DNA of 64,000 bases from a virus (IMGVR_UViG_3300032236_001613:124001-188000), one strand, 5' to 3'; positions 1,779 to 49,890 are shown, counted from the first letter of the stretch. Notes: generated by a model not told the origin, from the sequence alone. Numbers and translations: made by a program.

Positions 1779-3059
1779 ATGTTACTACGTGAATTATTTG
1801 AAGACTCAAAAAACCCCGATTTAATAGAAATTTTTCGAAAATTTTTTCCTTTAGCTATGAAAGAAATTGGGCTAAAGGATTTACCCAAAATTGAATTAGT
1901 TGACCGTGTTCAAGACAGAGTTCAACCAACGTTTGGTAAATTTGTTAATAATACCAATACAATATATTTAGGAATTCTAAATCGTCATCCTTTAGATATA
2001 TTACGTACACTAGCACACGAGCTAGTACATTATAAACAAAATACAGAACATCGATTAGATGCTACTAGCGGGCATACTGGAAGCCCTGCTGAGAACGAAG
2101 CACACGAAATTGCCGGCATTGTAATGCGTCATTTTAATAAAATGCATCCAGAATATTTTGATGATCTTCCGGTAATGACCGAAGGATGGCAAGACGATCT
2201 TAAGAAAAGATCGAGACAAGTAGGGTTAGGCTTAACTGCCGCTGCAGGATTCATAGGCGGATTGAAATCTCATGATTATTTCTATCCTCCTTATCAATAT
2301 ACACAGCAGCAAGCTCAAGACACACAGGACGAACCATTGATCCCTTCTGATGATAATGATGATTATTACCAAGGTCCGACTAGCGTTGATAAGAATCAAG
2401 GACCTGAACTCGAAATACCAAAATTATCAAACGCAGAAATTCCAGCAGTAAAAGAACCTGAAATACAAGCTCCATTAAATCAATCATACTTGAAGAAGTA
2501 TGTTCAAGCTCAAAAAATGGTAAAACTTCCTAACGCTTTAGAAAATGATCTTAAAAACGATGCTATGAAGCAAGGAATAGTAGGGTTAGAATTGGATCAA
2601 TTTTTAGGACAGTGGGCGCACGAAAGTGGTAACTTTACACAGTTTGACGAAATGTATAGAAATGGCGAAGCTTTTAAGAGTAAAAAATGGTTCATTGATC
2701 ATTACTGGAAAAACGACAGAATAAGACATGCATTAGGTAATAAACATCCTAATGATGCTTGGATGTATAGAGGAAGAGGCTTTTGCCAACTTACAGGAAG
2801 AGGCAACTACGAACAAGCCGGAAAAGCATTAGGTATTGACCTAACTAATAAACCTAATTTAGCAGCTAGTCCTAAGTATATGGGTGCTATTGCTATTTGG
2901 TATTGGAAAAATCGTGTAGCAACTAAAGTTGATGCAGAACATATGGGCGATACTACCGCAGTAACTAGAGCAATAAATCACGGCGAAAGTAAAGAAAATA
3001 TACAAAAAAGACATACCTGGGTACAATGGTTTAGAAAAATGTTTGGACGCGGTGCTTAA
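1779..3059 (+). CDS. Zincin-like domain fused to GH19 chitinase/endolysin
   Basis: A 426-residue two-domain protein. Residues about 1-130 look like a small zinc-metalloprotease fold, with HELVH near residue 82 and a downstream ENEAHE that could give the third zinc ligand. A hydrophobic stretch (GLGLTAAAGFIGG, near 150) and an acidic Pro/Gln-rich linker follow. Residues about 265-426 match glycoside hydrolase family 19: AHESGNF with the catalytic Glu, a second acidic site in DEMYRNGEAF, and RGRGFCQLTGRGNYEQ. GH19 enzymes cut chitin or peptidoglycan glycan; in a phage this domain most likely serves lysis or entry. The ATG is 4 nt after a late-promoter box and no Shine-Dalgarno sequence is visible, so a leaderless late mRNA is likely. 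The hydrophobic segment could be a signal-arrest or anchor. Confidence 0.82.
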   Translation: MLLRELFEDSKNPDLIEIFRKFFPLAMKEIGLKDLPKIELVDRVQDRVQPTFGKFVNNTNTIYLGILNRHPLDILRTLAHELVHYKQNTEHRLDATSGHTGSPAENEAHEIAGIVMRHFNKMHPEYFDDLPVMTEGWQDDLKKRSRQVGLGLTAAAGFIGGLKSHDYFYPPYQYTQQQAQDTQDEPLIPSDDNDDYYQGPTSVDKNQGPELEIPKLSNAEIPAVKEPEIQAPLNQSYLKKYVQAQKMVKLPNALENDLKNDAMKQGIVGLELDQFLGQWAHESGNFTQFDEMYRNGEAFKSKKWFIDHYWKNDRIRHALGNKHPNDAWMYRGRGFCQLTGRGNYEQAGKALGIDLTNKPNLAASPKYMGAIAIWYWKNRVATKVDAEHMGDTTAVTRAINHGESKENIQKRHTWVQWFRKMFGRGA

Positions 3060-26591: not shown

Positions 26592-27822
26592 AAATCATGT
26601 TTGCGACTTTTGTCAAAAGGCAAAAGAAGATGTCGAAAAACTTATTGTCGGCGATAATGCTGCTATTTGTAACGACTGTGTAGAACTATGCATTAGTATC
26701 TTAGATGAAGATAAAGTAAAGAAATTCCCGTTAGGTGATAATAAAAATTTACTAAATCCTGTGCATATTAAAGAATATTTAGATCAGTATGTTATTGGTC
26801 AAGAAAATGCAAAAATTGCTCTTAGTGTAGCAGTATGCCAACATTTTAAAAGAGTGTTCACTGATGTTAAAGACATTGAAATTGAAAAAACTAATGTATT
26901 AATTTTAGGACCTACTGGGTGTGGTAAAACTATGCTAGCTAAAAAGCTAGCAGAATACCTTAACGTACCTTTTGCTATTTGTGATGCAACTGGCTTAACA
27001 GAAGCTGGATACGTGGGCGACGATGTTGAGAGCGTATTAAATCGTTTAATTTCAGCAGCCGACGGCGATATTGATAAAGCTAAACAAGGTATTGTTTATA
27101 TTGACGAAATTGATAAACTAAGTCGTAAAGGTGAAAACACTAGTCTTACACGAGATGTTGGTGGAGAAGGTGTTCAACAAGGTCTACTAAAAATGATCGA
27201 AGGATCAGTAATACGAGTACCTGCTGCAGATAAGCGTAAGCATCCTAGAGGCGACATGATTGAAGTTGATACAAAAAACATATTGTTTATATGTGGCGGT
27301 GCATTTGTTGGGTTAGATAAGATTATTAACCGTAGAAATAAATCAGGTGCAGTTGGATTCGGAGCATCAGTAACGTCAAATAAAGATACATTAGGTTATA
27401 GCGATGTAATTACTAAAGATTTAATTACTTTCGGACTGATACCTGAATTTATCGGACGTTTCGGATTAATTACACATGTTGACGAATTAAGTGTAGACGA
27501 TTTGGTAAAAATACTTAAAGAACCAAAAAACAGTTTAATCAGTCAATATAAACATTTATTTGCTATCGACGGCATTGAATTAGAATTTAAAGACGAAGCA
27601 CTAAAGGAGGTTGCAGAAAAAAGTAAACAACTTCAAACAAATGCTAGAGGCTTAAAAAACATTTTAGAAAAAATCTTATTAAATTATCAATTCGAAGCAA
27701 TGGATCTTGTTCAGCGAGGCCTCAGTAAAATTGTGATAAGTAAAGAAGCAGTTCATGGTAAATCTGCTGAATTAATTTTTAATAAAACAAAGAAGAAGTT
27801 AAATTATGAAAGTAATAGTTAA
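26578..27822 (+). CDS. clpX: ATP-dependent unfoldase ClpX
   Basis: 414 residues (E. coli 424), GTG start with AAGAAGG upstream. The N-terminal zinc domain has Cys9, Cys12, Cys31 and Cys34. Walker A GPTGCGKT is at 111-118, pore loop GYVG near 144, Walker B VYIDEID near 173, and the second pore loop RKGENTSLTRDVGGEGVQQ follows. The RKH loop used for ssrA-tag recognition is present (DKRKHPRG). The ClpP-docking IGF tripeptide appears as VGF (SGAVGFGAS). No ClpP is in this window, so it likely works with host ClpP. Coupled to bS21 downstream; the phage also makes a tmRNA whose tag is a ClpX substrate type. Confidence 0.95.
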   Translation: MTTNKNHVCDFCQKAKEDVEKLIVGDNAAICNDCVELCISILDEDKVKKFPLGDNKNLLNPVHIKEYLDQYVIGQENAKIALSVAVCQHFKRVFTDVKDIEIEKTNVLILGPTGCGKTMLAKKLAEYLNVPFAICDATGLTEAGYVGDDVESVLNRLISAADGDIDKAKQGIVYIDEIDKLSRKGENTSLTRDVGGEGVQQGLLKMIEGSVIRVPAADKRKHPRGDMIEVDTKNILFICGGAFVGLDKIINRRNKSGAVGFGASVTSNKDTLGYSDVITKDLITFGLIPEFIGRFGLITHVDELSVDDLVKILKEPKNSLISQYKHLFAIDGIELEFKDEALKEVAEKSKQLQTNARGLKNILEKILLNYQFEAMDLVQRGLSKIVISKEAVHGKSAELIFNKTKKKLNYESNS

Positions 27823-28012
27823 GGATGGTAATATTAACGCTGCTCTAAGAAAGTTCAAAAAGAAAGTTGAAGACAGTGGTATATTGATTGAAGTTTTAGA
27901 AAGACAATACTACGAAAAGCCCACAATTGCAAGACGTCGAGCTAAGGCTGCTGCAAAAGCTCGTTGGCGTAAAAAGCAAAGAGAATTGACAACGCAGGCT
28001 AGATACGATTGA
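27806..28012 (+). CDS. rpsU: Ribosomal protein bS21
   Basis: 68 residues. The sequence follows the bS21 pattern: MKVIVKDGNINAALRKFKKKVEDSGIL.EV..R.YYEKPT..RRRAKAAAKARWRKK. bS21 binds the 30S platform near the anti-Shine-Dalgarno sequence and affects initiation. Starts inside clpX (17-nt overlap). Phage-encoded bS21 is known in pelagiphages and other large phages, so it probably replaces host bS21 on ribosomes to favour phage mRNA. Confidence 0.93.
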   Translation: MKVIVKDGNINAALRKFKKKVEDSGILIEVLERQYYEKPTIARRRAKAAAKARWRKKQRELTTQARYD

Positions 28013-28037
28013 CATTTTGCTGTAGTTTTGCTATAGT
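28009..28037 (+). promoter_or_regulatory. Sigma70 promoter (TTGACA-17-TATAGT), near-leaderless
   Basis: Consensus -35, 17-nt spacer. The predicted start (about 28044) is at the ATG at 28046, so the message has practically no leader. Confidence 0.8.
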
Positions 28038-28045
28038 AATTGTCT

Positions 28046-28570
28046 ATGCCAAAACACTTAATGGTCGATTTAGAAACACTATCGGTTGCTCCTGATGCAG
28101 TTATATTGACATTAGGAGCTGTTCATTTTGATCCTTTTGATAAAGGAATTATTAATGAACTTTATATTAAATTTGATCTCGACGATCAGGATCTTTTAAA
28201 AAGATCCATTGATCCACTAACATTAGATTGGTGGGCAAAGCAAGATTCTAAAATAATGGAAGAAGCATTTTCTCCAGATGGAAGAACCAAAGTATCTGAT
28301 GCTATCGATCAGTTCCACAAGTTTGCATGGGGGTGCGATAAATTTTGGAGTCACGGCGCAGTATTTGATCTTATGATCATAGAAAATTTATACCGTCAAC
28401 TAAAAAAATCATTTCCTTGGAACTTTTGGGATTTGAGAGACACAAGAACATTATTTGATCTAGGATTTAAGTCTAACATGACAAAAGACTCTATGCATAA
28501 TGCTCTTGAAGATGCTAAACGGCAGGCTATTGGTGTACAAAACGTTTATGCTCAAATAAAGAGAACATGA
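28046..28570 (+). CDS. DEDDh 3'-5' exonuclease (DexA/DnaQ-like)
   Basis: The ATG at 28046 is preferred over a TTG at 28040. 174 residues. Motif ExoI is MVDLETLSV (D-x-E), ExoII includes WSHGAVFDLMIIENLY (Asp), and ExoIII is HNALEDAKRQA with His and Asp. This matches RNase T/DexA-type exonucleases such as T4 DexA and Rv2179c. It probably degrades or trims DNA or RNA early in infection, consistent with its host-type promoter. Confidence 0.85.
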   Translation: MPKHLMVDLETLSVAPDAVILTLGAVHFDPFDKGIINELYIKFDLDDQDLLKRSIDPLTLDWWAKQDSKIMEEAFSPDGRTKVSDAIDQFHKFAWGCDKFWSHGAVFDLMIIENLYRQLKKSFPWNFWDLRDTRTLFDLGFKSNMTKDSMHNALEDAKRQAIGVQNVYAQIKRT

Positions 28571-29313
28571 AAAAACTGTTTGATCGATTATATTTTCAAA
28601 GCGGCGGAAGTTTAGGTGATTGTTTTGTATTATCAGGTATAATACATTATTATGCAGAAAAAACTAAAGAGCTGCACGTTCCGGCTTATCCTGTTTACTA
28701 TAAAACAATTCAAACTCTTTATCAAGACTACAAAAACATCATTGTGGTTTCAATTTCAAATGCAGAAGAAGAGGAAGAATATGTTAATTCTAAAAAATTA
28801 TCAAAAATTTTAGGTGGTCGTGTATACGGTGAATTAATAAGAGGACTGTATATTCACACTCTATGGGATCAGCAATTATATGCTAACCACGAATTACCGT
28901 TTAGTTTAAGATACAAAAACTTCAAACTCCCGAAATATATTAACGGCGAAGAAGAACTTTATCAGAAACTTAGCAATAATGAACCTTACGTGTTAGTACA
29001 TAGATATACTGGCGATCATCCTCAAGGAATCCCTATTAGTATAGAAAATTTTAGATCAGCTAATGGAATGACTCCTATAAAAATCATAGATATTGATCAT
29101 ACTATTACAGACAATATGATGCAATACGTAAAACTAATTAAAAATGCAGAAGAAATACACTGTGTTGCTAGCAGTTTCCATTGTTTAGTTGATAGTATCG
29201 ATACTCCTGCTCGGTTATTTTTTCACGACGTGAGAGAAAAAACTTCAATGCTAGTAAATTCGGAATGGAATAATAATAAATGGATAATAATAAATTACAG
29301 TCAAAAGTTTTAA
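28567..29313 (+). CDS. Heptosyltransferase-like (GT-B) protein
   Basis: 248 residues, start overlapping the previous stop (ATGA). N-terminal QSGGSLGDCFVLSGIIHYYAEK has the SLGD turn of GT9/ADP-heptose transferases; the C-terminal ..AEEIHCVASSFHCLVDSI is the nucleotide-sugar site equivalent. Shorter than bacterial heptosyltransferases. It may transfer a sugar to LPS or a phage structure. Same broad fold as the protein at 63180. Confidence 0.55.
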   Translation: MKKLFDRLYFQSGGSLGDCFVLSGIIHYYAEKTKELHVPAYPVYYKTIQTLYQDYKNIIVVSISNAEEEEEYVNSKKLSKILGGRVYGELIRGLYIHTLWDQQLYANHELPFSLRYKNFKLPKYINGEEELYQKLSNNEPYVLVHRYTGDHPQGIPISIENFRSANGMTPIKIIDIDHTITDNMMQYVKLIKNAEEIHCVASSFHCLVDSIDTPARLFFHDVREKTSMLVNSEWNNNKWIIINYSQKF

Positions 29314-39261: not shown

Positions 39262-39526
39262 GAGTCGTATTAAAGAACCTAAGAAGTTTAAAGTTCTAAT
39301 ACTTAATGACGATTATACTCCTATGGATTTTGTTATTGCTATTCTTGTTACTGTTTTTAAACACCCAGAACCATCTGCTGTAAAAATTATGTTGCAAGTT
39401 CATAACGAAGGCAGTGGAGTAGCAGGTGTATATAACTACGAAATCGCAGAACAGAAAGGGATTGAAACTACCAATCTTGCCAAAGAAAACGGTTATCCAT
39501 TACAAATCAAGGTTGAACCTGTATGA
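39224..39526 (+). CDS. clpS: ClpS adaptor of N-end-rule proteolysis
   Basis: 100 residues behind AACGGAG. The N-degron pocket motif NDDYTPMDFVIAIL is intact, with the later VHNEGSGVAGVYNYEIAEQK. ClpS delivers substrates with bulky N-terminal residues to ClpAP. No ClpA is in the window, so it must use host ClpA or may divert it. Stop overlaps the heme oxygenase start (ATGA). Confidence 0.93.
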   Translation: MGDTAVVSKETVKSRIKEPKKFKVLILNDDYTPMDFVIAILVTVFKHPEPSAVKIMLQVHNEGSGVAGVYNYEIAEQKGIETTNLAKENGYPLQIKVEPV

Positions 39527-40065
39527 GTTTAAAAGATTTAACTAAAGATAGCCATACTGCTGCTGAAAAAACAAAATTCATGAAGGCAGTATTTAAAGGT
39601 ACTATGCCTTTGAATGTATGGGCAGATTGGACATATCAAAAGAGTTTATTTTATAATGCTATTGAAAGCTGCGCCGACGAATTAGATATTTTAAAAGATA
39701 TTCCAAATATTAAAAGAACTTTTTTGTTGCTTAAAGATTATAAAGAAATGGTAGCTGAGCACGTAACTCCCGCATATCGAAAAGTTACTTTAGATTATTA
39801 TCAATATATTATGAGTCTTTATCCTGATCGCGATCGTGTAATTGCACATCTTTATACATGGCATATGGGAGATTTGCACGGCGGACAAATGATTAAAAAG
39901 ATTTTGCCAGGTAGTCATAGTAATTTAGAATTTGTAGACTCTGCAACAACAATCTCTAATGTTAGAATGCTCTTAGACGACCGGCTAGCTAAAGAAGCTA
40001 ATATGGCATTTCATTGGGCAATTAGATTAATGGAAGACTATGAACCCTGGCTTGCCGGCGAATAA
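39523..40065 (+). CDS. Heme oxygenase (HO-1 type)
   Basis: 180 residues; ATG inside the clpS stop. The proximal-His motif SHTAAEKTKFMKAVFKG (near 11) and the distal helix HLYTWHMGDLHGGQMIKKIL (near 108) identify the HO fold; phage versions are shorter than bacterial HO-1 (about 200-240). It opens heme to biliverdin, CO and iron, using reduced ferredoxin. The overlapping next gene converts biliverdin further, as in ho1-pebS or ho1-pcyX cassettes. Confidence 0.92.
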   Translation: MSLKDLTKDSHTAAEKTKFMKAVFKGTMPLNVWADWTYQKSLFYNAIESCADELDILKDIPNIKRTFLLLKDYKEMVAEHVTPAYRKVTLDYYQYIMSLYPDRDRVIAHLYTWHMGDLHGGQMIKKILPGSHSNLEFVDSATTISNVRMLLDDRLAKEANMAFHWAIRLMEDYEPWLAGE

Positions 40066-40714
40066 AGTTATCGACTTTGCCGAAAAGTTTATTAGACGTC
40101 TAGAACAAAATTCTGACTGTATTAAAGAAGAACATCCGACATTAATTTGGCGTGATTACGTTTTTCATAGCGATACTTTTAGACGTGCTCACGTTAATAT
40201 AGTTGATGCCAGAGATACTAGAGGATTGTATCTTTTTCATTGTTGTATTTTTCCAAAGTTAAATGATACTAGTCCTATATTCGGGTTGGATATTATTGCC
40301 GGGGAAACTAAAATTAGCGGAGCCTTTCACGATTTTTCAAAAACAGTAGATCCTAATCATCCTATGATGTCATGGTTTGAAAATATTGTTAAAACATTAA
40401 GTTGGCGAAGGCCAAGAGAACTTCCAGAGTGGGCACAATCAATTTTTAGTCCTGCAATAATTGCTGCCGGTGCAATAAACACTGAAGAAGAAATTGATCA
40501 ATTAATTACATTCTCTCTAAATAGTTTAGATTATTATCTCGATAATGTTGGATTAACTACATTTCCAACCGGCAACTTTTCAAAAGAGCAAAATTTCTAC
40601 TGTCAGCAGCAAAAATTAAATCCTCATAATGCTCGTACTATGCAACATCTTGGACTCACTGCAGAAGAAGCAAACTATTTTGTCCAAAATGTCATGTTTC
40701 CCGAAGTTAAGTAA
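40040..40714 (+). CDS. Ferredoxin-dependent bilin reductase (PcyX/PebS-like)
   Basis: 224 residues, overlapping the heme oxygenase gene by 26 nt. Diagnostic FDBR features: YVFHSDTFRRAHVNIVDARDTRGLYLFH, then FPKLNDTSPIFGLDIIAGETKISGAFHDFS with the central Asp (FGLD) that protonates the bilin, HPMMSWFE, and RELPEWAQSIFSPAIIAAG. FDBRs reduce biliverdin to phycobilins. Among phage types, PebS and PcyX make phycoerythrobilin and PcyX is known from phage metagenomes without a cyanobacterial host; the exact class cannot be set by eye. No phycobiliprotein or bilin lyase is in the window. Confidence 0.88.
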   Translation: MNPGLPANKVIDFAEKFIRRLEQNSDCIKEEHPTLIWRDYVFHSDTFRRAHVNIVDARDTRGLYLFHCCIFPKLNDTSPIFGLDIIAGETKISGAFHDFSKTVDPNHPMMSWFENIVKTLSWRRPRELPEWAQSIFSPAIIAAGAINTEEEIDQLITFSLNSLDYYLDNVGLTTFPTGNFSKEQNFYCQQQKLNPHNARTMQHLGLTAEEANYFVQNVMFPEVK

Positions 40715-40754: not shown

Positions 40755-40780
40755 CTCCTGTAAATATTTACGTACAGGAG
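40755..40780 (+). promoter_or_regulatory. SD-sequestering hairpin with internal late promoter
   Basis: CTCCTGTA (40755-40762) pairs perfectly with TACAGGAG (40773-40780), which contains the csgF ribosome-binding site. The late box TGTAAATA (40759-40766) sits in the left arm and loop. RNA read through from clpS-ho-pcyX would carry both arms and hide the site; RNA begun at the late promoter (near 40772) would have only the right arm and be translatable. The same logic is known for T4 gene e. Confidence 0.75.
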
Positions 40781-40786
40781 TAACCG

Positions 40787-41242
40787 ATGAAACATAAATT
40801 ACTTATTTTGTTAGCATTTTATGCTACTACATCATCGGCAGCTCTACCTGACTTTTCTTTTAAAAGCCCTTCGTTTAACGGGCAAGGTTATGGATCATAC
40901 CAAGTAACCTTAGAGAACGAAGCTTACACTCGTTCACAACAGATACAGCAAGCATTAGAAGCAGCAGCACAAGCTGCTAAAAATGCTGCTGCTAATACCC
41001 CGATTAATCAATTCCTTACAAATCTTGAATCAAGAATTTACGCACAGATAGGTCAAAATCTTGCTACAGCAATGTTTGCCGGCGGGGATAAGACTAGCGG
41101 TAGTATCGATTTTCAAGGTAACACAATCTTTTGGCAGCATAATGCTACCGATATTACACTACAAGTAACAGATAGCTTGGGTAATGTAACCACAATCACT
41201 GTGCCGTTAGGTTCATTTAACATAACAGGATCGGGGGTCTGA
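40787..41242 (+). CDS. csgF: Curli assembly protein CsgF
   Basis: 151 residues. Signal peptide MKHKLLILLAFYATTSSA, then the CsgF opening LPDFSFKSPSFNGQGYGSYQ (compare F..F.NP.FGGN), the helical repeat region with TPINQFLTNLESRIYAQIG, and the C-terminal beta part DITLQVTDSLGNVTTITVPLG. CsgF plugs the CsgG pore at the cell surface and helps nucleate curli. It is 3 nt from csgG, as in bacteria. Confidence 0.9.
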   Translation: MKHKLLILLAFYATTSSAALPDFSFKSPSFNGQGYGSYQVTLENEAYTRSQQIQQALEAAAQAAKNAAANTPINQFLTNLESRIYAQIGQNLATAMFAGGDKTSGSIDFQGNTIFWQHNATDITLQVTDSLGNVTTITVPLGSFNITGSGV

Positions 41243-41244
41243 TA

Positions 41245-42165
41245 ATGCGATTACTGACTTTACTTGCTAGCACATTAGTGCTAACAGGCTGCGCAACCAT
41301 GCAGAGATTTGATCAACTATCGAAAATAAAATACGATCCTACTCCAATGGCAGATACTATGCAAAGAGAGTTTGACCGCATGCCTGCACCTAAGAACGGA
41401 AAAATTACTGTAGCCATTTACAATTTCCAAGATAAAACTGGACAACGTAAAACAGTACCAGGCGTAGCTAGTTTCTCTACAGCAGTAACGCAAGGTGCTG
41501 ATGCATTTTTAATACGTGCACTTCAAGAAGTAGGACACGGAGAATGGTTTGATGTTGTTGAAAGAAGTAATATTGACGACTTAACTAAAGAAAGATTAAT
41601 TATTAAACAGATGCGAGATGCATACGAAGGTAAAGATGCAGAAAAACTTATGCCATTAACCTTTGCGGGAATCATATTAGAAGGCGGTATTGTAGGATAC
41701 GATAGTAGTTTAGAATCCGGCGGTTATGCTAACAATTGGTTAGGTACTGGTAAACAAACACAATACAGTAAAGATATTGTAACTATAAGCTTACGAGCAG
41801 TATCGGTAAACACTGGCAAAGTATTAGCATCTGTTAATGTAACTAAGATAGTATTAAGTACTGCTGATAGCTTCGCAGTATTAAAGATGAAGCATGATGG
41901 AACAGCACCTTTTGAATTAGAAGGTGGAATAACAATGAACGAAGCGCCTACTATTGCTGTAAAGACTACAATAGAAGCAGCAGTAATAGAATTAATCAAA
42001 GAAGGCGAGCGTAAATCTATTTGGGATTATAAAACGACTGCACAATCTCAAATACCACAATCTGCACCGTTGGAAGGAACACCAACGATACCTGTAGGAA
42101 TGAATAAAACACCTAAGGTACCTGCGGATGTTGCAGTCAAAACTGGCGACATAAAAAACTTTTAA
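41245..42165 (+). CDS. csgG: Curli secretion channel CsgG
   Basis: 306 residues (E. coli 277). Lipoprotein signal with lipobox LTGC (Cys16). The CsgG core is seen as ITVAIYNFQDKTGQRK, ADAFLIRALQEVGHGEWFDVVERSNIDDLTKERLI, AGIILEGGIVGYDSSLESGGYANNWLG and TISLRAVSVNTGKVLASVN. The nonamer of this protein makes the outer-membrane pore for curli subunits. In a phage it could export phage curlins, or act as an open pore. Only some T4-like phages (pelagiphage HTVC008M, from memory) carry csgF-csgG. A Pro/Thr-rich C-terminal tail of about 45 residues is extra. Confidence 0.94.
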   Translation: MRLLTLLASTLVLTGCATMQRFDQLSKIKYDPTPMADTMQREFDRMPAPKNGKITVAIYNFQDKTGQRKTVPGVASFSTAVTQGADAFLIRALQEVGHGEWFDVVERSNIDDLTKERLIIKQMRDAYEGKDAEKLMPLTFAGIILEGGIVGYDSSLESGGYANNWLGTGKQTQYSKDIVTISLRAVSVNTGKVLASVNVTKIVLSTADSFAVLKMKHDGTAPFELEGGITMNEAPTIAVKTTIEAAVIELIKEGERKSIWDYKTTAQSQIPQSAPLEGTPTIPVGMNKTPKVPADVAVKTGDIKNF

Positions 42166-42174
42166 GGAGCAGAA

Positions 42175-43089
42175 ATGAAAAAGTTAAACACAATTCTTGC
42201 AAGCTTTGTGGCCGCAACGTTATTCGGTGCAGCAGCATATGCAGGAGACAACACAATTTATATTAACCAATCTGGTAATAATACTAATGTAAACATTACA
42301 CAAGATGGTGCTAGCAACGTTGTACAAGGCATTTCGAATTCAAATCCGGATGCTTTACAAAACGCAGCAATCGTTAAAGGTAATAATAACATTGTTAATA
42401 TTAGCCAAATTGGCACAGGCGATACATTAAACTTTGGTGTGCAAACTAGCACTGGAACAAAATTAATCGGGAATAGCTTTAGTTACAGCGTGACCGGCAA
42501 TAATGCTAACGCTATTATCAATAGCAACAACGACGGGTTAGGCATTAGTGCTAACAACACTATTTCTGTTAATCAAACAGGCGATTCAGCATACACCAAT
42601 ATCAACATGCTAGGCGGAGGTAACTCGTTTACTGCTGTAACTGCAGGCGGCAATGGAAATATGATTTCTGCTGTTATTAACGGTACAAATAATGTTGACA
42701 CAGTTAGCATGGTCGGTGGTGCAAGCAATAGCTTTAGCTTAGGTCAAGGTAACGCAACATCTCAAACTATGAACGGTACAGTTAATGTATCAACTAATGG
42801 TGCAACCGATAACGTTACTATTAGCCAATTTGGCGGAGCAGTAGGTGACAGTGTTACAGTCGGCGGCTACAACTCAGTAGGACTTACTACAGTTGGAGCA
42901 TTCAACGGATCTGGTAACACAATGGTTATTGCTCAAAGCGGTGTTTATGACAACGCATTGACACTTGGCGGTAACGGTAGTAGTAATGTTTTCAATGTAA
43001 CTCAATCAGCTTTGGGAGGCAACAACCTTGCTAATATCCAAAGCAATGGAAGTAGCAATACATTTAACATAACACAAACACACCGTTGA
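42175..43089 (+). CDS. Curlin-repeat amyloid subunit (CsgA/B-like)
   Basis: 304 residues, AAGGAG site. Signal peptide ending AAAYAGD, then tandem curlin-like repeats: NTIYINQSGNNTNVNITQDGASN, NNNIVNISQIGTGD, NTISVNQTGDSAYTN, NVTISQFGG, NTMVIAQSGVYDNAL, NVFNVTQSALGGNN. The Q-(S/I/T)-G-x-x-N spacing is the curlin (PF07012-like) signature. It is the likely cargo of CsgG. No cysteine is present. The chain is longer and more irregular than CsgA (151 aa). Confidence 0.88.
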   Translation: MKKLNTILASFVAATLFGAAAYAGDNTIYINQSGNNTNVNITQDGASNVVQGISNSNPDALQNAAIVKGNNNIVNISQIGTGDTLNFGVQTSTGTKLIGNSFSYSVTGNNANAIINSNNDGLGISANNTISVNQTGDSAYTNINMLGGGNSFTAVTAGGNGNMISAVINGTNNVDTVSMVGGASNSFSLGQGNATSQTMNGTVNVSTNGATDNVTISQFGGAVGDSVTVGGYNSVGLTTVGAFNGSGNTMVIAQSGVYDNALTLGGNGSSNVFNVTQSALGGNNLANIQSNGSSNTFNITQTHR

Positions 43090-43090
43090 T

Positions 43091-44293
43091 ATGAAAAAGA
43101 TCCTACTGACGGCTATATTAGTTTCAATATCTTTGAACTGTATAGCCTCAGTAGGTCAAATTACTGAGATGTCACAAACACCTGCAGTAATACAAAGAAA
43201 TAAATCAACACTAACAGGTATAACTGGCACTGGCGTTGAAATGGCCGACGTAGTTAATACTAAGCATGGCAAAGTTGGCATTGTATTTGAAGACGATACT
43301 AAAGTACAAGTAAGCGAAGATTCAAAACTAGTAATCGACGATTTTGTTTATGACCCCAAAGGTAAAAAACCTAACCGCCTGGCCCTTAACATGGCATCGG
43401 GTACTGTTAGGTATGCATCAGGCGTTATTGCACATAGTAATCCTAACGCTGTAAATCTACGCACTCCTACTGCAACTATTGCAGTGCGTGGAACTGATTT
43501 CACTACTACAGTAGCCGAGCTAGGCGAAAGTACAATTATATTGTTACCCAGCTGCCCTAATGCTAATCCAATAGATTACGAAGTAGAGTGCAAGACAGGT
43601 AAAATCGAAGTAATAACAGATGCAGGATCAGTTACATTAGATAAACCATTCCAAGCAACAAAAGTTTTATCTGCAAATACGTTTCCTTTAAAACCTGTTA
43701 TTCTAAAATTAAATGAAAACGCTATTAGTAACATGTTAATACTTAGTCCTCCGCCGCAGATAAAAATGGCGCAAGAGCGTGCAGAAAGAGAAACAAAAGC
43801 AGGTGCTGCAACTTCTTTAATAACAACTACTACAAAAATTGACGCAGAAAAACCCACAGTTGAAACAGCTAATGTTGTAGCAGATTGGTCAGTTGATATC
43901 GAACATCCTGTTATAGCAACAGTGTCAGTAAAATCTACAGTAATTAAAGTAGAACCTGTTACACCTAGTGCATTTTTAGATAATGAAACTTTAAATATTG
44001 TATTAGACATGGTTAGTGTACAGATTAATGCAACTCCTACTAACAATAATTCTCTAACAACTACTCCTATTAAAAATACTATTATTCCTGATTACACACC
44101 TACAAGCGGAACAGTTGCTACTATCGATACTCAACAGGTAGAAATATGCCGTACAGACTTTAGTAATAACACAGTATGCGCAATTACTCCACGAGATCAA
44201 AGCAGCATAATTACGCAAACACAAGGTACAGTTACAGTCGTAAATAGAATTAATCAAGGTGGTAATACTGTTATAACCACAAGGCAAAACTAA
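43091..44293 (+). CDS. FecR-domain secreted protein
   Basis: 400 residues. Signal peptide MKKILLTAILVSISLNCIAS, then FecR domain (about 45-160): VVNTKHGKVGIVFEDDTKVQVSEDSKLVIDDF, MASGTVRYASG and LRTPTATIAVRGTDF. The rest is low-complexity, Thr/Val-rich. In bacteria FecR-domain proteins often sit beside CHASE2 cyclases, as here. It may be a periplasmic sensor or matrix protein. Starts 2 nt after the curlin gene. Confidence 0.8.
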   Translation: MKKILLTAILVSISLNCIASVGQITEMSQTPAVIQRNKSTLTGITGTGVEMADVVNTKHGKVGIVFEDDTKVQVSEDSKLVIDDFVYDPKGKKPNRLALNMASGTVRYASGVIAHSNPNAVNLRTPTATIAVRGTDFTTTVAELGESTIILLPSCPNANPIDYEVECKTGKIEVITDAGSVTLDKPFQATKVLSANTFPLKPVILKLNENAISNMLILSPPPQIKMAQERAERETKAGAATSLITTTTKIDAEKPTVETANVVADWSVDIEHPVIATVSVKSTVIKVEPVTPSAFLDNETLNIVLDMVSVQINATPTNNNSLTTTPIKNTIIPDYTPTSGTVATIDTQQVEICRTDFSNNTVCAITPRDQSSIITQTQGTVTVVNRINQGGNTVITTRQN

Positions 44294-45600
44294 TGAAACA
44301 GTTTTTCTTAACTTTATTATTGTTTCTATCTAGTACAGCACTAGCTGATGTTGGAGATTTACCTGGATTAACTTATACTAGCTATTACGAAACTGCCGGA
44401 GCCACACCCACACGCTCGACTACAGCGTATCCGGTAGCTACTACAGGAGTATTAAACACTTTCTATATTCCTAGTAGTGGAAGCATGTTAGGAGCTAGTA
44501 GAACTAATATGATTATGGTGCATATTACAGGCTATATGGAAATTATGCCTACTGCTAACCTAGCTGCAGGAACTAGTGTTAATGTAACCTTTTACGATCA
44601 AAGTGACGACGGGTTCAGTTTAGCTTTAAATGGAACATATGTAATTAACAATTGGAAAGAACAAGGGTGTAGTTGTTCGGTTAACTGGAACGGAGCATCT
44701 AACTCTAATGGGTCGACTACTATGGTGGTAGGGCAATTATACGCCGTTGATGCTTGGTATTATAATAATGGTGGCGGTTACGGTATGCAGTTGTATTGGA
44801 ACGTTGGAGGTTCTATTACTAATATTCCTGCCGGTGATTTATATAGAACTATTGTAACTTACTCTAGTAGTATAACTGCAGCACAACAAACTGACGTTAC
44901 TAGATTTAATAATACATCTATTTCAGGCAATGCTATCTACATAAGACAAAGCGGTAATAATGATAAAATTACTGTGCAGCAAATCGGGTCGAATAATTTA
45001 ATTACCGGAGTTGGGCAACAATTTGCTATTGTTCAAAACGGCAATAATACTATTAATATTAAACAAGGTAATCTTAATAATTTAGGAAAAAATGAAATAG
45101 ACCTTAGTGTAGTAGGCGGAAGCAATAGTGTTGCTATAACAGAAGGATATGATACTAATGGTACTAGTGCTGGTAATAACTATCAGCTAGTAGGTATTAA
45201 CGGAATAGGAAATACTGTTACAACTAGCCAAACTAACGACGGTGGTAGTGTAGGACATTTTTTAGAGGCTGTTGTTAATGGTAATTACAATACTGTAGGA
45301 ATTATTCAAAGTAATAACACACAAAAGCAGATATTTGCCAGCATCACAGGAAATAATAATACTATTACTACTAGCCAAACAGGTACAGGACAACATTATC
45401 TTAATATAACAGAAACCGGAAACGGCAATAGTGCTGTAGTTAATCAAAGCGGTAATACTAATAATGCTGCTACCATAGTACTAAATAATCAAGGAGCACC
45501 TGCGAGTGTTAATCTAACCCAAACAGGAGGTCAGGTTTACAGTATAACGCAAACATGCGTAACCACTTGCGGCACTGTTACTGTTAAGCAAGGACCTTAA
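44293..45600 (+). CDS. PA14-like domain fused to curlin repeats
   Basis: 435 residues. Signal peptide MKQFFLTLLLFLSSTALA. Residues about 70-200 look like a PA14/GLEYA-type sugar-binding sandwich: VTFYDQSDDGFSLALNGTYVINNWKEQG and QLYAVDAWYYNNGGGYGMQLYWN. From about 215 on there are curlin repeats (AIYIRQSGNNDKITVQQIGSNN, NTINIKQGN, NTVTTSQTND, NSAVVNQSGNTNN). This suggests a CsgG-exported adhesin or nucleator (CsgB-like role) that binds a glycan. ATG overlaps the previous stop. Confidence 0.78.
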   Translation: MKQFFLTLLLFLSSTALADVGDLPGLTYTSYYETAGATPTRSTTAYPVATTGVLNTFYIPSSGSMLGASRTNMIMVHITGYMEIMPTANLAAGTSVNVTFYDQSDDGFSLALNGTYVINNWKEQGCSCSVNWNGASNSNGSTTMVVGQLYAVDAWYYNNGGGYGMQLYWNVGGSITNIPAGDLYRTIVTYSSSITAAQQTDVTRFNNTSISGNAIYIRQSGNNDKITVQQIGSNNLITGVGQQFAIVQNGNNTINIKQGNLNNLGKNEIDLSVVGGSNSVAITEGYDTNGTSAGNNYQLVGINGIGNTVTTSQTNDGGSVGHFLEAVVNGNYNTVGIIQSNNTQKQIFASITGNNNTITTSQTGTGQHYLNITETGNGNSAVVNQSGNTNNAATIVLNNQGAPASVNLTQTGGQVYSITQTCVTTCGTVTVKQGP

Positions 45601-47628
45601 ATGTTTAAAAAAATTCTGTTGAGTCCGTGGACTGCACTACTTACACTTTTTTTAGTAGTTGCTGTTAGAGTGGTCGATCCTAGCTTTGTTGAAAGTGTGC
45701 GCCTTAGATATTTTGATACTTTAATTACAAATAAAGCATCTACGGCTAATAATATTTTTACTGTTAATATTGACGAAGCTGCATTAGATCGTTACGGTCA
45801 ATGGCCATTACCTCGCAACGTATATGCTGACATTATACAAGATTTGTATAATCGTCATGCAGGATTAGTTGTATTAGATGTTGTAATGTCTGAAAAAGAT
45901 CGTATGGGCGGCGATTCTGCATTAGCTGATATGATGAAACAGTATCCAGTAGTATTAGCTAACATTCCAGCAGAAAAAACTAAAAACGATCCGCGTGCAC
46001 CCGGAAGTGCAGTAATGGGTGCAGATCATTTAGATCGTATTGTACAATATCCGGGACTAATTGCTAATATTCCTGCATTAGAAGAAAATGCTGTAGGTAT
46101 AGGCAGTGTAAACACTATGCCAGAAATTGATGGAGTTAATCGTCGTGTACCTTTAATTGCTGCAATTAACGGAAAACTATACCCGTCATTAGCCATGGAA
46201 GCACTACGTGTTGCAGGTAATGATACTACATTTCAAGTTAAGCTTAACGAAAATGGTGTAGAGAAAATGCGTATACCTGCATTCGGACCTATCGCAACAG
46301 ATAGCCTAGGACGCATTTGGGTTGACTGGAGTCAACAAAATCGACAGATTTCTATAACAGATTTACCTAAAGACTTTAATGGTGCTGTAGTTATAGTAGG
46401 CCCTACTGCTGCAGGTATTGCTAATCCTGTTCCGACTTCTCGAGGCGCGGTTTATCCTCAAGATATGCAAGCTGCAGTATTAGGTACAATGATAAATGGC
46501 GTAACAATACAAAGACCCGATTATGCAGACGGACTAGAAATCGTTGCTATTTTATTAGCAAGTGTTATACTGTTAATTCTAACAAGGTGGGTTTATGCAG
46601 GATTGGCGGCAGTCGTTATTTTACTGGGTTCAGGAGCTTTTGGCAGTTATTATCTTTTTAGCCATTACCTTTGGCTTTTTGATGCTAGTGCTTTTGTTGC
46701 TGCGATCGTCCTTGTGTCACTCCATGCCTATGGAGTTAAATTCGTTAGTGAATATTTGCAGAAGCAACAAATAAAGAAACAGTTTGGCACATACTTGAGT
46801 CCGGCAATGGTTGAAAAATTACAAAAAAATCCCGAACTATTAAAGTTGGGCGGTGAATCACGCGAACTTAGTATTATGTTTACGGACGTTCGAGGATTTA
46901 CAGGAATTAGCGAACACTATGGCAAGGATGTACAGGGACTTACTAAGATTATGAATCGCTATATGACTGCCATGACTGCAAAAATCATAGAGAATGAAGG
47001 TACACTAGATAAGTACATTGGTGATGCACAAATGGCATTCTGGAACGCACCGTTAGACGATGCTGCCCACGCTAAACATGCTGTAAAAACTGCATTAGCT
47101 ATGTTAAAAGATTTGGAGAATTTTAATGCAGAAATCGCTAAAGAAGGTGTTCCAGAGTTTGGAATGGGGCTTGGCATTAACACTGATACTGTCGTGGTTG
47201 GCAATATGGGGAGTAGTCAGCGTTTTGATTATACTTGTCTTGGGGACGGCGTTAATCTTGCGAGTCGTTTGGAAGGACAAAGTAAGCCCTATGGTGTCAA
47301 GATTATTCTCGGGCCGAAAACAGCAGAATATGTAATGGACGAATATCCTTTAATCGAATTAGATTTAATTGCTGTTAAAGGTAAAAAAGAACCTGTTAAG
47401 ATCTATACTGTAGCACCGATTGACGATGCTATGGCTTGGCTATTACACGAAAAGTTCTTAGATGCCTACAGAGACGGTATGTGGGTAGGTGCACGTTTCT
47501 ATGCTGAAGAATTGCGTGACAAAGGATGGAATGGCGAGATGTACAAGTATTACGAAATGATGCTAGAGCGTATGCAAGGAGAAGTTCCGTTAGATTGGGA
47601 CGGTGTATTTAGAGCCACTAGCAAATAA
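45601..47628 (+). CDS. CHASE2-domain class III adenylate cyclase
   Basis: 675 residues. One N-terminal helix, a periplasmic CHASE2 sensor (about 30-310; NIDEAALDRYGQWPLPR, VVLDVVMSEKDRMGGD), three transmembrane helices (about 315-385), then a cyclase domain from about 420: IMFTDVRGFTGISE (metal Asp), DKYIGDAQMAFWNAP (Lys and second Asp), and YTCLGDGVNLASRLEG (Asn-x3-Arg transition-state residues), all intact. A ~75-residue C-terminal tail follows. It should make cAMP on sensing an unknown periplasmic signal, perhaps with the neighbouring FecR protein. Host cAMP-CRP circuits would be the target. Confidence 0.9.
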   Translation: MFKKILLSPWTALLTLFLVVAVRVVDPSFVESVRLRYFDTLITNKASTANNIFTVNIDEAALDRYGQWPLPRNVYADIIQDLYNRHAGLVVLDVVMSEKDRMGGDSALADMMKQYPVVLANIPAEKTKNDPRAPGSAVMGADHLDRIVQYPGLIANIPALEENAVGIGSVNTMPEIDGVNRRVPLIAAINGKLYPSLAMEALRVAGNDTTFQVKLNENGVEKMRIPAFGPIATDSLGRIWVDWSQQNRQISITDLPKDFNGAVVIVGPTAAGIANPVPTSRGAVYPQDMQAAVLGTMINGVTIQRPDYADGLEIVAILLASVILLILTRWVYAGLAAVVILLGSGAFGSYYLFSHYLWLFDASAFVAAIVLVSLHAYGVKFVSEYLQKQQIKKQFGTYLSPAMVEKLQKNPELLKLGGESRELSIMFTDVRGFTGISEHYGKDVQGLTKIMNRYMTAMTAKIIENEGTLDKYIGDAQMAFWNAPLDDAAHAKHAVKTALAMLKDLENFNAEIAKEGVPEFGMGLGINTDTVVVGNMGSSQRFDYTCLGDGVNLASRLEGQSKPYGVKIILGPKTAEYVMDEYPLIELDLIAVKGKKEPVKIYTVAPIDDAMAWLLHEKFLDAYRDGMWVGARFYAEELRDKGWNGEMYKYYEMMLERMQGEVPLDWDGVFRATSK

Positions 47629-49608: not shown

Positions 49609-49890
49609 TCAATCTCTTCTAGCATCATTTTTGCCATCGGCTCTAGCAATACGGTCAACATCGGGTCTTAAGCCAAGAGCATTTGAAACAATTGTGTCTA
49701 TTCTAATAACATCATGATTCATAGTTTTAACACGATTATCGAGAGCAGTAATTATACCTTTCATACCATTAACGCTACTAGTAACTCCAGCTAAGATAAA
49801 TTTTAATGTTAGAAATACAAAATAACCACCGGCACACGCTGCTGCTATCGGAAAACCTAACTGTGCTACTAAATTAAAAAATTGATCCAT
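49609..49890 (-). CDS. Small holin-like membrane protein (paralogue B)
   Basis: 93 residues: transmembrane helix GFPIAAACAGGYFVFLTLKFILAG then a helix ITALDNRVKTMNHDVIRIDTIVSNALG. Paralogue of the protein at 47966 (matching GFP-[IV]-[AV]AA and the DxR.....D.IR periodicity). A strong AAGGAG site and late promoter precede it. Could be a holin or a holin/antiholin partner. Confidence 0.6.
   Translation of the reverse strand: MDQFFNLVAQLGFPIAAACAGGYFVFLTLKFILAGVTSSVNGMKGIITALDNRVKTMNHDVIRIDTIVSNALGLRPDVDRIARADGKNDARRD

Follow-up and report, generated by a model that had tools for sequence, protein, structure and literature searches.

Why would a jumbo phage carry, next to the pore of curli secretion, curlin-like cargo, a FecR-domain protein and an adenylate cyclase? 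The question is raised by the virus contig IMGVR_UViG_3300032236_001613 (328,068 bp), of which positions 124001-188000 were analyzed (64,000 nucleotides, hereafter the window; positions are counted from its first letter). Six plus-strand genes at 40787-47628 encode, in order, CsgF, CsgG, a curlin-repeat protein, a FecR-domain protein, a PA14-curlin fusion and a CHASE2 adenylate cyclase. We lean towards the answer that this module makes adhesive curli-type (type VIII) fibres, produced late and tipped with a lectin, on the infected cell, together with a cyclase that responds to the status of the fibres; export and amyloid assembly of the cargo would both be required. A previous reading made from the sequence alone (the sequence-only reading) had described the six genes as arranged head to tail, and this is borne out by the open reading frames (ORFs), all at these positions, by six Pfam matches that exceed the curated cut-offs, and by synteny. 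It had given the gaps as 0-9 nt; they are, in order, 2, 9, 1, -1 and 0 nt, so that the upper bound stands and the lowest value becomes -1 nt. Shine-Dalgarno-like leaders precede most of the genes.

The arrangement is not due to chance, as related viral loci are syntenic. Among the best 80 of at least 565 viral stretches obtained by a cyclase search, csgF, csgG and fecR were each found in 64-68, the usual order being csgF-csgG-curlin-fecR-(slot)-cyclase, where the slot is a variable gene. In several of the remaining loci the cyclase and a csgF-csgG-curlin-fecR block are on opposite strands, facing each other at a distance of a few kb. The terminase of the window phage is nearest to those of RaK2/121Q-like and PA5oct-like jumbo phages (42-53% identical); over the pieces aligned, it shares 50-73% identity with the terminases of IMG/VR contigs of 337-344 kb that encode a related cyclase. 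The module is also carried by relatives whose terminases are only 32% identical to that of the window, which indicates that it moves between lineages.

The six-gene module was already known from ocean phages. The cultured phages HTVC008M (Pelagibacter phage, gp014-gp019) and Melnitz (Methylophilales phage, gp99-gp104) have the same six genes in the same order, as well as a pair of small genes described below. Phage-encoded curli have been discussed since 2020. A report of CsgF, CsgG and three other genes proposed "sibling capture" (PMC7029224, 2020), and CsgG was then proposed to be a gated pore for lysis (PMC9004378, 2022). In pelagiphages the order CsgF-CsgG-CsgA/B-FecR was described, often with a second CsgA/B and an adenylate cyclase and with one or two "histidine kinase" genes in front, superinfection exclusion and aggregation being the proposed roles (PMC9599517, 2022). 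The novelty seen by the sequence-only reading is thus mostly lost, and its contrast with phages having csgFG only is not supported, given the full set in HTVC008M and Melnitz and the statement of PMC9599517 for pelagiphages. Of the roles that it suggested, cell-to-cell binding and the exclusion of other phages were published hypotheses as well (PMC7029224, PMC9599517). Two points escaped it: the minus-strand pair of genes that closely follows the module, and the occurrence of the full set in known phages. Two of its arguments are supported: pore, cargo and cyclase do occur together, and real fibre export is likelier than a bare pore in view of the repeats, the secretion leaders, the lectin head, the conserved order and the intact cyclase. 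What the present analysis adds is the small pair, the exchangeable heads, the end of the FecR protein, the intact catalytic residues of the cyclase, the late-type promoter of csgF and the jumbo-phage setting. Seen in this way, the module would be an adhesive fibre whose heads can be exchanged, with a fibre-linked FecR-cyclase pair and two conserved partner genes, and it is carried by jumbo phages. HTVC008M gp018 is also a PA14-curlin fusion; the Melnitz slot protein has no PA14 match, and in the Melnitz cyclase Ser takes the place of the transition-state Asn, whereas the window has both PA14 and Asn. Unlike these two phages, the window phage has a 328-kb genome and belongs to the RaK2/PA5oct-like terminase group.

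Table 1. Features of the curli-type module and of its flanks in the window
Feature	Position	Strand	Evidence
Putative late-type promoter box TAAATA (40761-40766) inside inverted repeat CTCCTG-N14-CAGGAG	40755..40780	+	hexamer enrichment; csgF leaders
csgF, 151 residues, signal peptide, fibre-anchoring pore subunit	40787..41242	+	Pfam CsgF 5e-13; phrog_35372 1.5e-47
csgG, 306-residue lipoprotein, outer-membrane secretion pore	41245..42165	+	Pfam CsgG 2.3e-40; structure alignment; Cys16; tree
First curlin-repeat protein, 304 residues, putative fibre subunit (CsgA/B-like)	42175..43089	+	strand motifs; hhalign; position
FecR-domain protein, 400 residues: signal peptide, FecR domain, linker, C-terminal curlin-like strand domain ~337-400, invariant Gln399	43091..44293	+	Pfam FecR 6.9e-9; motif; AlphaFold
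Slot protein, 435 residues: signal peptide, predicted PA14 lectin-type head ~26-176, curlin stalk ~213-411, C-x3-C C-terminal cap	44293..45600	+	Pfam PA14 4.6e-7; alignment; model
CHASE2 class III adenylate cyclase, 675 residues: CHASE2 16-324, catalytic domain 421-603, conserved tail	45601..47628	+	Pfam CHASE2 2.1e-40, Guanylate_cyc 1.2e-18; catalytic residues
Module-linked small membrane protein B, 107 residues	47966..48289	-	phrog_18771 1.2e-31; most csgF loci
Module-linked small membrane protein A, 93 residues, paralogue of B	49609..49890	-	phrog_18771 1.4e-34; phage records

The pore is of the curli type. Residues 2-269 of the window CsgG align to solved E. coli CsgG structures (E 1.7e-42), and the lipid-anchor Cys16 is invariant in 12 phage CsgG. 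In a tree, phage CsgG and the protein of one bacterial locus (L099, see below) form one side of a branch against 74 bacterial sequences, with a support of 99 in the Shimodaira-Hasegawa-like approximate likelihood ratio test (SH-aLRT). The window protein falls in this phage clade (SH-aLRT 99), as expected for a module of the HTVC008M/Melnitz type. A 1.5-kb record named "Salmonella phage" also matched csgG and was set aside as a probable host fragment. Of the components of type VIII (curli) secretion, the module contains a CsgG lipoprotein pore, its CsgF partner and a curlin-repeat cargo. It has in common with E. coli curli (csgBAC/csgDEFG) the CsgG pore, CsgF and curlin repeats of ~23 residues; it differs by the absence of CsgE, by the absence of CsgC and CsgD from the module, and by the addition of a FecR protein, a cyclase and a lectin-headed subunit.

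To characterize the cargo we scored the curlin strand motif [NGSD]xx[VILFTAY]x[VILF]xQ against 2000 shuffles. It occurs seven times in each of the two repeat proteins, compared to 0.65 and 0.82 times in shuffled sequences, none of which reached seven. The first of them has its positional counterparts in HTVC008M gp016 and Melnitz gp101, and by profile comparison its family matches the slot proteins in their curlin part (hhalign P 1.7e-18). The slot separates fecR from the cyclase and contains ORFs of more than 100 residues in 45 loci; a C-terminal Cys cap is found in 35 of these, compared to 58 of 1667 ORFs overall. In 24 aligned slot proteins, N and Q positions spaced by ~23 residues are invariant, as are C422 and C426, while the N-terminal heads differ: PA14 in five, a GLEYA match in one, the rest unnamed. 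The window and its close relative L074 have cyclases 89% identical, yet no alignment of their slot proteins extends before residue 187: the part that aligns is in the curlin stalk, and the head of the window protein is not alignable. Slot proteins are therefore curlin stalks with exchangeable heads and, in most cases, a conserved Cys cap.

The structure prediction that the sequence-only reading had suggested for the PA14-curlin fusion gave a PA14 sandwich followed by repeated strand pairs, and matched the adhesin lectins MpPA14 (Marinomonas), Flo5 and Epa1. The predicted beta-sandwich and the Asp-Asp pair, present in the translated head, are common to these adhesins and the window protein, though the former carry the domain on an RTX or cell-wall protein and the latter on a curlin stalk. 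In PA14 lectins, both Ca2+ and sugar are bound through this pair (PMC8092209). The head thus models as a PA14 lectin with putative sugar binding, and the predicted layout of the slot protein is that of an adhesive fibre subunit.

The module seems to be expressed late. The most enriched hexamer upstream of the genes of the window phage is TAAATA, found in 61 of 143 regions where 4.4 were expected (~14-fold), and it also precedes the terminase gene; for these reasons it is likely a T4-like late promoter of this jumbo phage, of which csgF would have one. The exact T4 late box, TATAAATA, was considered and rejected, being rarer than chance in the window. Overall TAAATA lies within 80 nt of csgF in 33 of 63 leaders, and box positions T20, A21, A22 and A25 are invariant in 18 aligned csgF leaders (chosen by eye). 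The right arm of the inverted repeat around the csgF box covers the Shine-Dalgarno sequence of the gene. Such a repeat is found at 8 of the 33 csgF TAAATA sites, compared to 40 of 1404 TAAATA sites (2.8%). Another surrounds the TAAATA upstream of 49890 (minus strand) and overlaps the ribosome-binding site of small gene A; it was not found among relatives of that gene. With these frequencies we claim neither repeat as an element.

Taken in sequence, the proposed mechanism would run as follows. The module's own late-type promoter would drive it late in infection, CsgG and CsgF would provide the outer-membrane exit, and the first curlin protein would build the body of the fibre. The slot protein would be its adhesive subunit, with a curlin stalk, the Cys cap at one end and the PA14 lectin head at the other. 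Such sticky fibres would most likely retain nearby cells, or the glycans of these cells, in the vicinity and thereby let the progeny find hosts. As a role for the fibre, the exclusion of rival phages ranks second to host finding. In that alternative, proposed in PMC9599517, fibres coat the infected cell against competing phages by superinfection exclusion or receptor masking, with adhesion to neighbouring cells as a by-product. In its favour, surface glycans of the host itself could be occupied by the lectin head, and late expression would guard the end of a long jumbo-phage cycle. Late expression is however also late for excluding rivals, and a swappable lectin head on a stalk fits outward binding better than coating; we consider this explanation rather unlikely.

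Two further genes are newly linked to the module, coding for the small paralogous membrane proteins A and B. One or both are present in nearly every csgF locus examined, and among 50,697 phage records the pair occurs only in six HTVC008M and Melnitz records. In these phages it lies just upstream of csgF; in the window it follows the module, on the minus strand. A TAAATA is found at most 80 nt upstream of gene A in 42 of 49 relatives. From their position, A and B are probably the "histidine kinases" of PMC9599517; neither has a Pfam match, including to a kinase domain. Compared with holin profiles, they match only phrog_4898, weakly, over the N-terminal 23 residues (at best 1.1e-4, for Melnitz B). 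This weak match allows the gated lysis pore of PMC9004378 to be extended, with CsgG as outer-membrane pore and A and B as holin-like inner-membrane partners that depolarise or open the envelope at lysis. Such a scheme leaves the conserved curlin, FecR, slot protein and cyclase unexplained, and an endolysin-type gene is present separately in the window (1779-3059), so that we find it improbable.

The FecR protein has previously been read as an iron-dependent regulator. Its FecR domain is periplasmic according to the Pfam match and to a fold match with PupR and 4m0n. The AlphaFold model, confident at both ends, contains a signal-type helix (residues 2-14), a beta-domain from residue 22 and six short strands at 341-399, with a predicted local distance difference test score of ~90-95. 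It has no room for an N-terminal cytoplasmic anti-sigma domain plus a membrane helix, and no sigma-factor gene is found among the genes of the module; with the signal peptide, these observations led us to reject an anti-sigma regulator. They also make very improbable the suggestion of PMC7029224 and PMC9599517 that an ungated CsgG pore, CsgE being absent, admits nutrients or siderophores to the infected cell with FecR as iron sensor, a suggestion that further leaves cargo and lectin head unexplained. The C-terminal end points to another function. Its curlin-like motif is present in 64 of 68 module FecR proteins, compared to 37 of 1245 background ORFs and 1 of 14 bacterial FecR homologues outside curli loci, and Gln399 is the sole fully invariant residue within roughly the last 175 in 56 aligned sequences. 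As the module FecR ends in a curlin-like strand domain, the protein is probably a periplasmic partner that would dock on the fibre, its C-terminal domain binding curlin subunits or the fibre base. The model also matches 5ix9, "Cell surface anchoring domain" (target template modelling score 0.73, 1.3 Å over 63 columns, E 0.022); a search of the FecR profile against solved-structure sequences gave chance matches only, and the residues behind this fold match were not located.

The cyclase has a conserved catalytic site. The metal Asp pair, the Lys/Asp substrate pair and the transition-state Asn/Arg are all intact in the window protein, which is 39-40% identical to those of HTVC008M and Melnitz. 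D429, K471, D475, D549 and R556 are invariant in 83 phage cyclases and N552 is conserved in 71. In the Melnitz cyclase (L002:8826-10877) and 11 viral relatives Ser replaces the transition-state Asn, which may lower activity. Like the window protein, alphaproteobacterial CHASE2 adenylate cyclases associate CHASE2 with a class III domain and sometimes lie beside a fecR gene; bacterial CHASE2 cyclases are mostly unlinked to curli, unlike that of the window. Over the short flanks available, FecR adjoins CHASE2 cyclases outside curli in 3 of 30 cyclase loci and 2 of 10 FecR loci, which suggests that an older sensing pair was combined with a curli cassette. The FecR domain would probably face the CHASE2 sensor, fibre export or assembly setting the level of cyclic AMP (cAMP) in the infected cell. 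A fibre-status sensor of this kind, in which the FecR end joins or caps curlin and its occupancy is reported through CHASE2 as cAMP, is a tentative idea that we hold with some doubt. If true, the phage would tie the assembly of amyloid outside the cell to the physiology of its infected host; with the exchangeable lectin heads, this would amount to a phage-encoded, self-monitoring adhesion organelle. Stand-alone proteins of ~100-128 residues that resemble only the C-terminal tail of the cyclase are also encoded near the module in several phages (L021:3056-3442, L050:1571-1945, L065:2386-2742 and others); short "cyclase" matches near csgF are such tail-only proteins and were not retained as cyclases.

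Several observations weigh against an adhesive fibre with its sensor. The CsgE gate was not found anywhere in the 328-kb record; it is also missing from published phage and alphaproteobacterial modules (PMC9599517), and its absence is therefore a difference from E. coli curli rather than an exclusion from the class. The first curlin protein of the window is below the Pfam Curlin_rpt model, and the PA14-curlin fusion likewise misses its cut-off, although 13 of 24 relatives of the fusion match it. Comparison of the FecR end with the curlin profile gave a probability of 15% (P 0.0018), little above the CsgF control; with so weak a value we claim a common end motif and strand layout, not a common origin. 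The FecR-CHASE2 contact is proposed from gene linkage alone. Finally, no visible clumping was seen in Melnitz infection although this phage has the six genes (PMC9004378), which counts against strong aggregation in culture.

The distribution in bacteria was analyzed on 80 CsgG loci from a CsgG profile scan of bacterial genomes; a single-sequence cyclase scan of these genomes gave no match. FecR and cyclase were found together in one cellular locus and in phage-like contigs binned into genomes. In the available flanks of 74 ordinary bacterial curli loci the pair was not found, one weak and distant cyclase-like match (L143) apart. The cellular locus, from Hyphomonas sp. TMED17 (L099:8486-14509), has a phage-type csgF-csgG-curlin-fecR-cyclase set within bacterial flanks. 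Its gene order and its CsgG, inside the phage clade, are as in the window module, from which it differs by having no slot gene, no upstream small pair and a FecR without the end motif. A phage-to-cell transfer and an ancestral donor are both possible origins. Phage-like contigs with the module occur in assemblies assigned to Pirellulales, Rhodobacteraceae, Pelagibacter, Sphingobacteriales and Flavobacteriales (L103, L108, L111, L136 and L140).

Two minor observations concern the surroundings of the module and a related phage. Directly upstream of the module, at 39523-40714, the window has genes for a heme oxygenase and a ferredoxin-dependent bilin reductase; the contig L103, binned as Pirellulales, has the same order Hsp20-ClpS-like-heme oxygenase-bilin reductase shortly before csgF. 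The terminase large subunit gene of L005 (L005:6682-9255; record 26682-29255) contains an in-frame insertion of ~325 residues (91-415) in the Walker A region. Relatives align on both sides of it without the insertion, which looks like an intein, and in two relatives of this terminase an insertion is found at about residue 605 instead.

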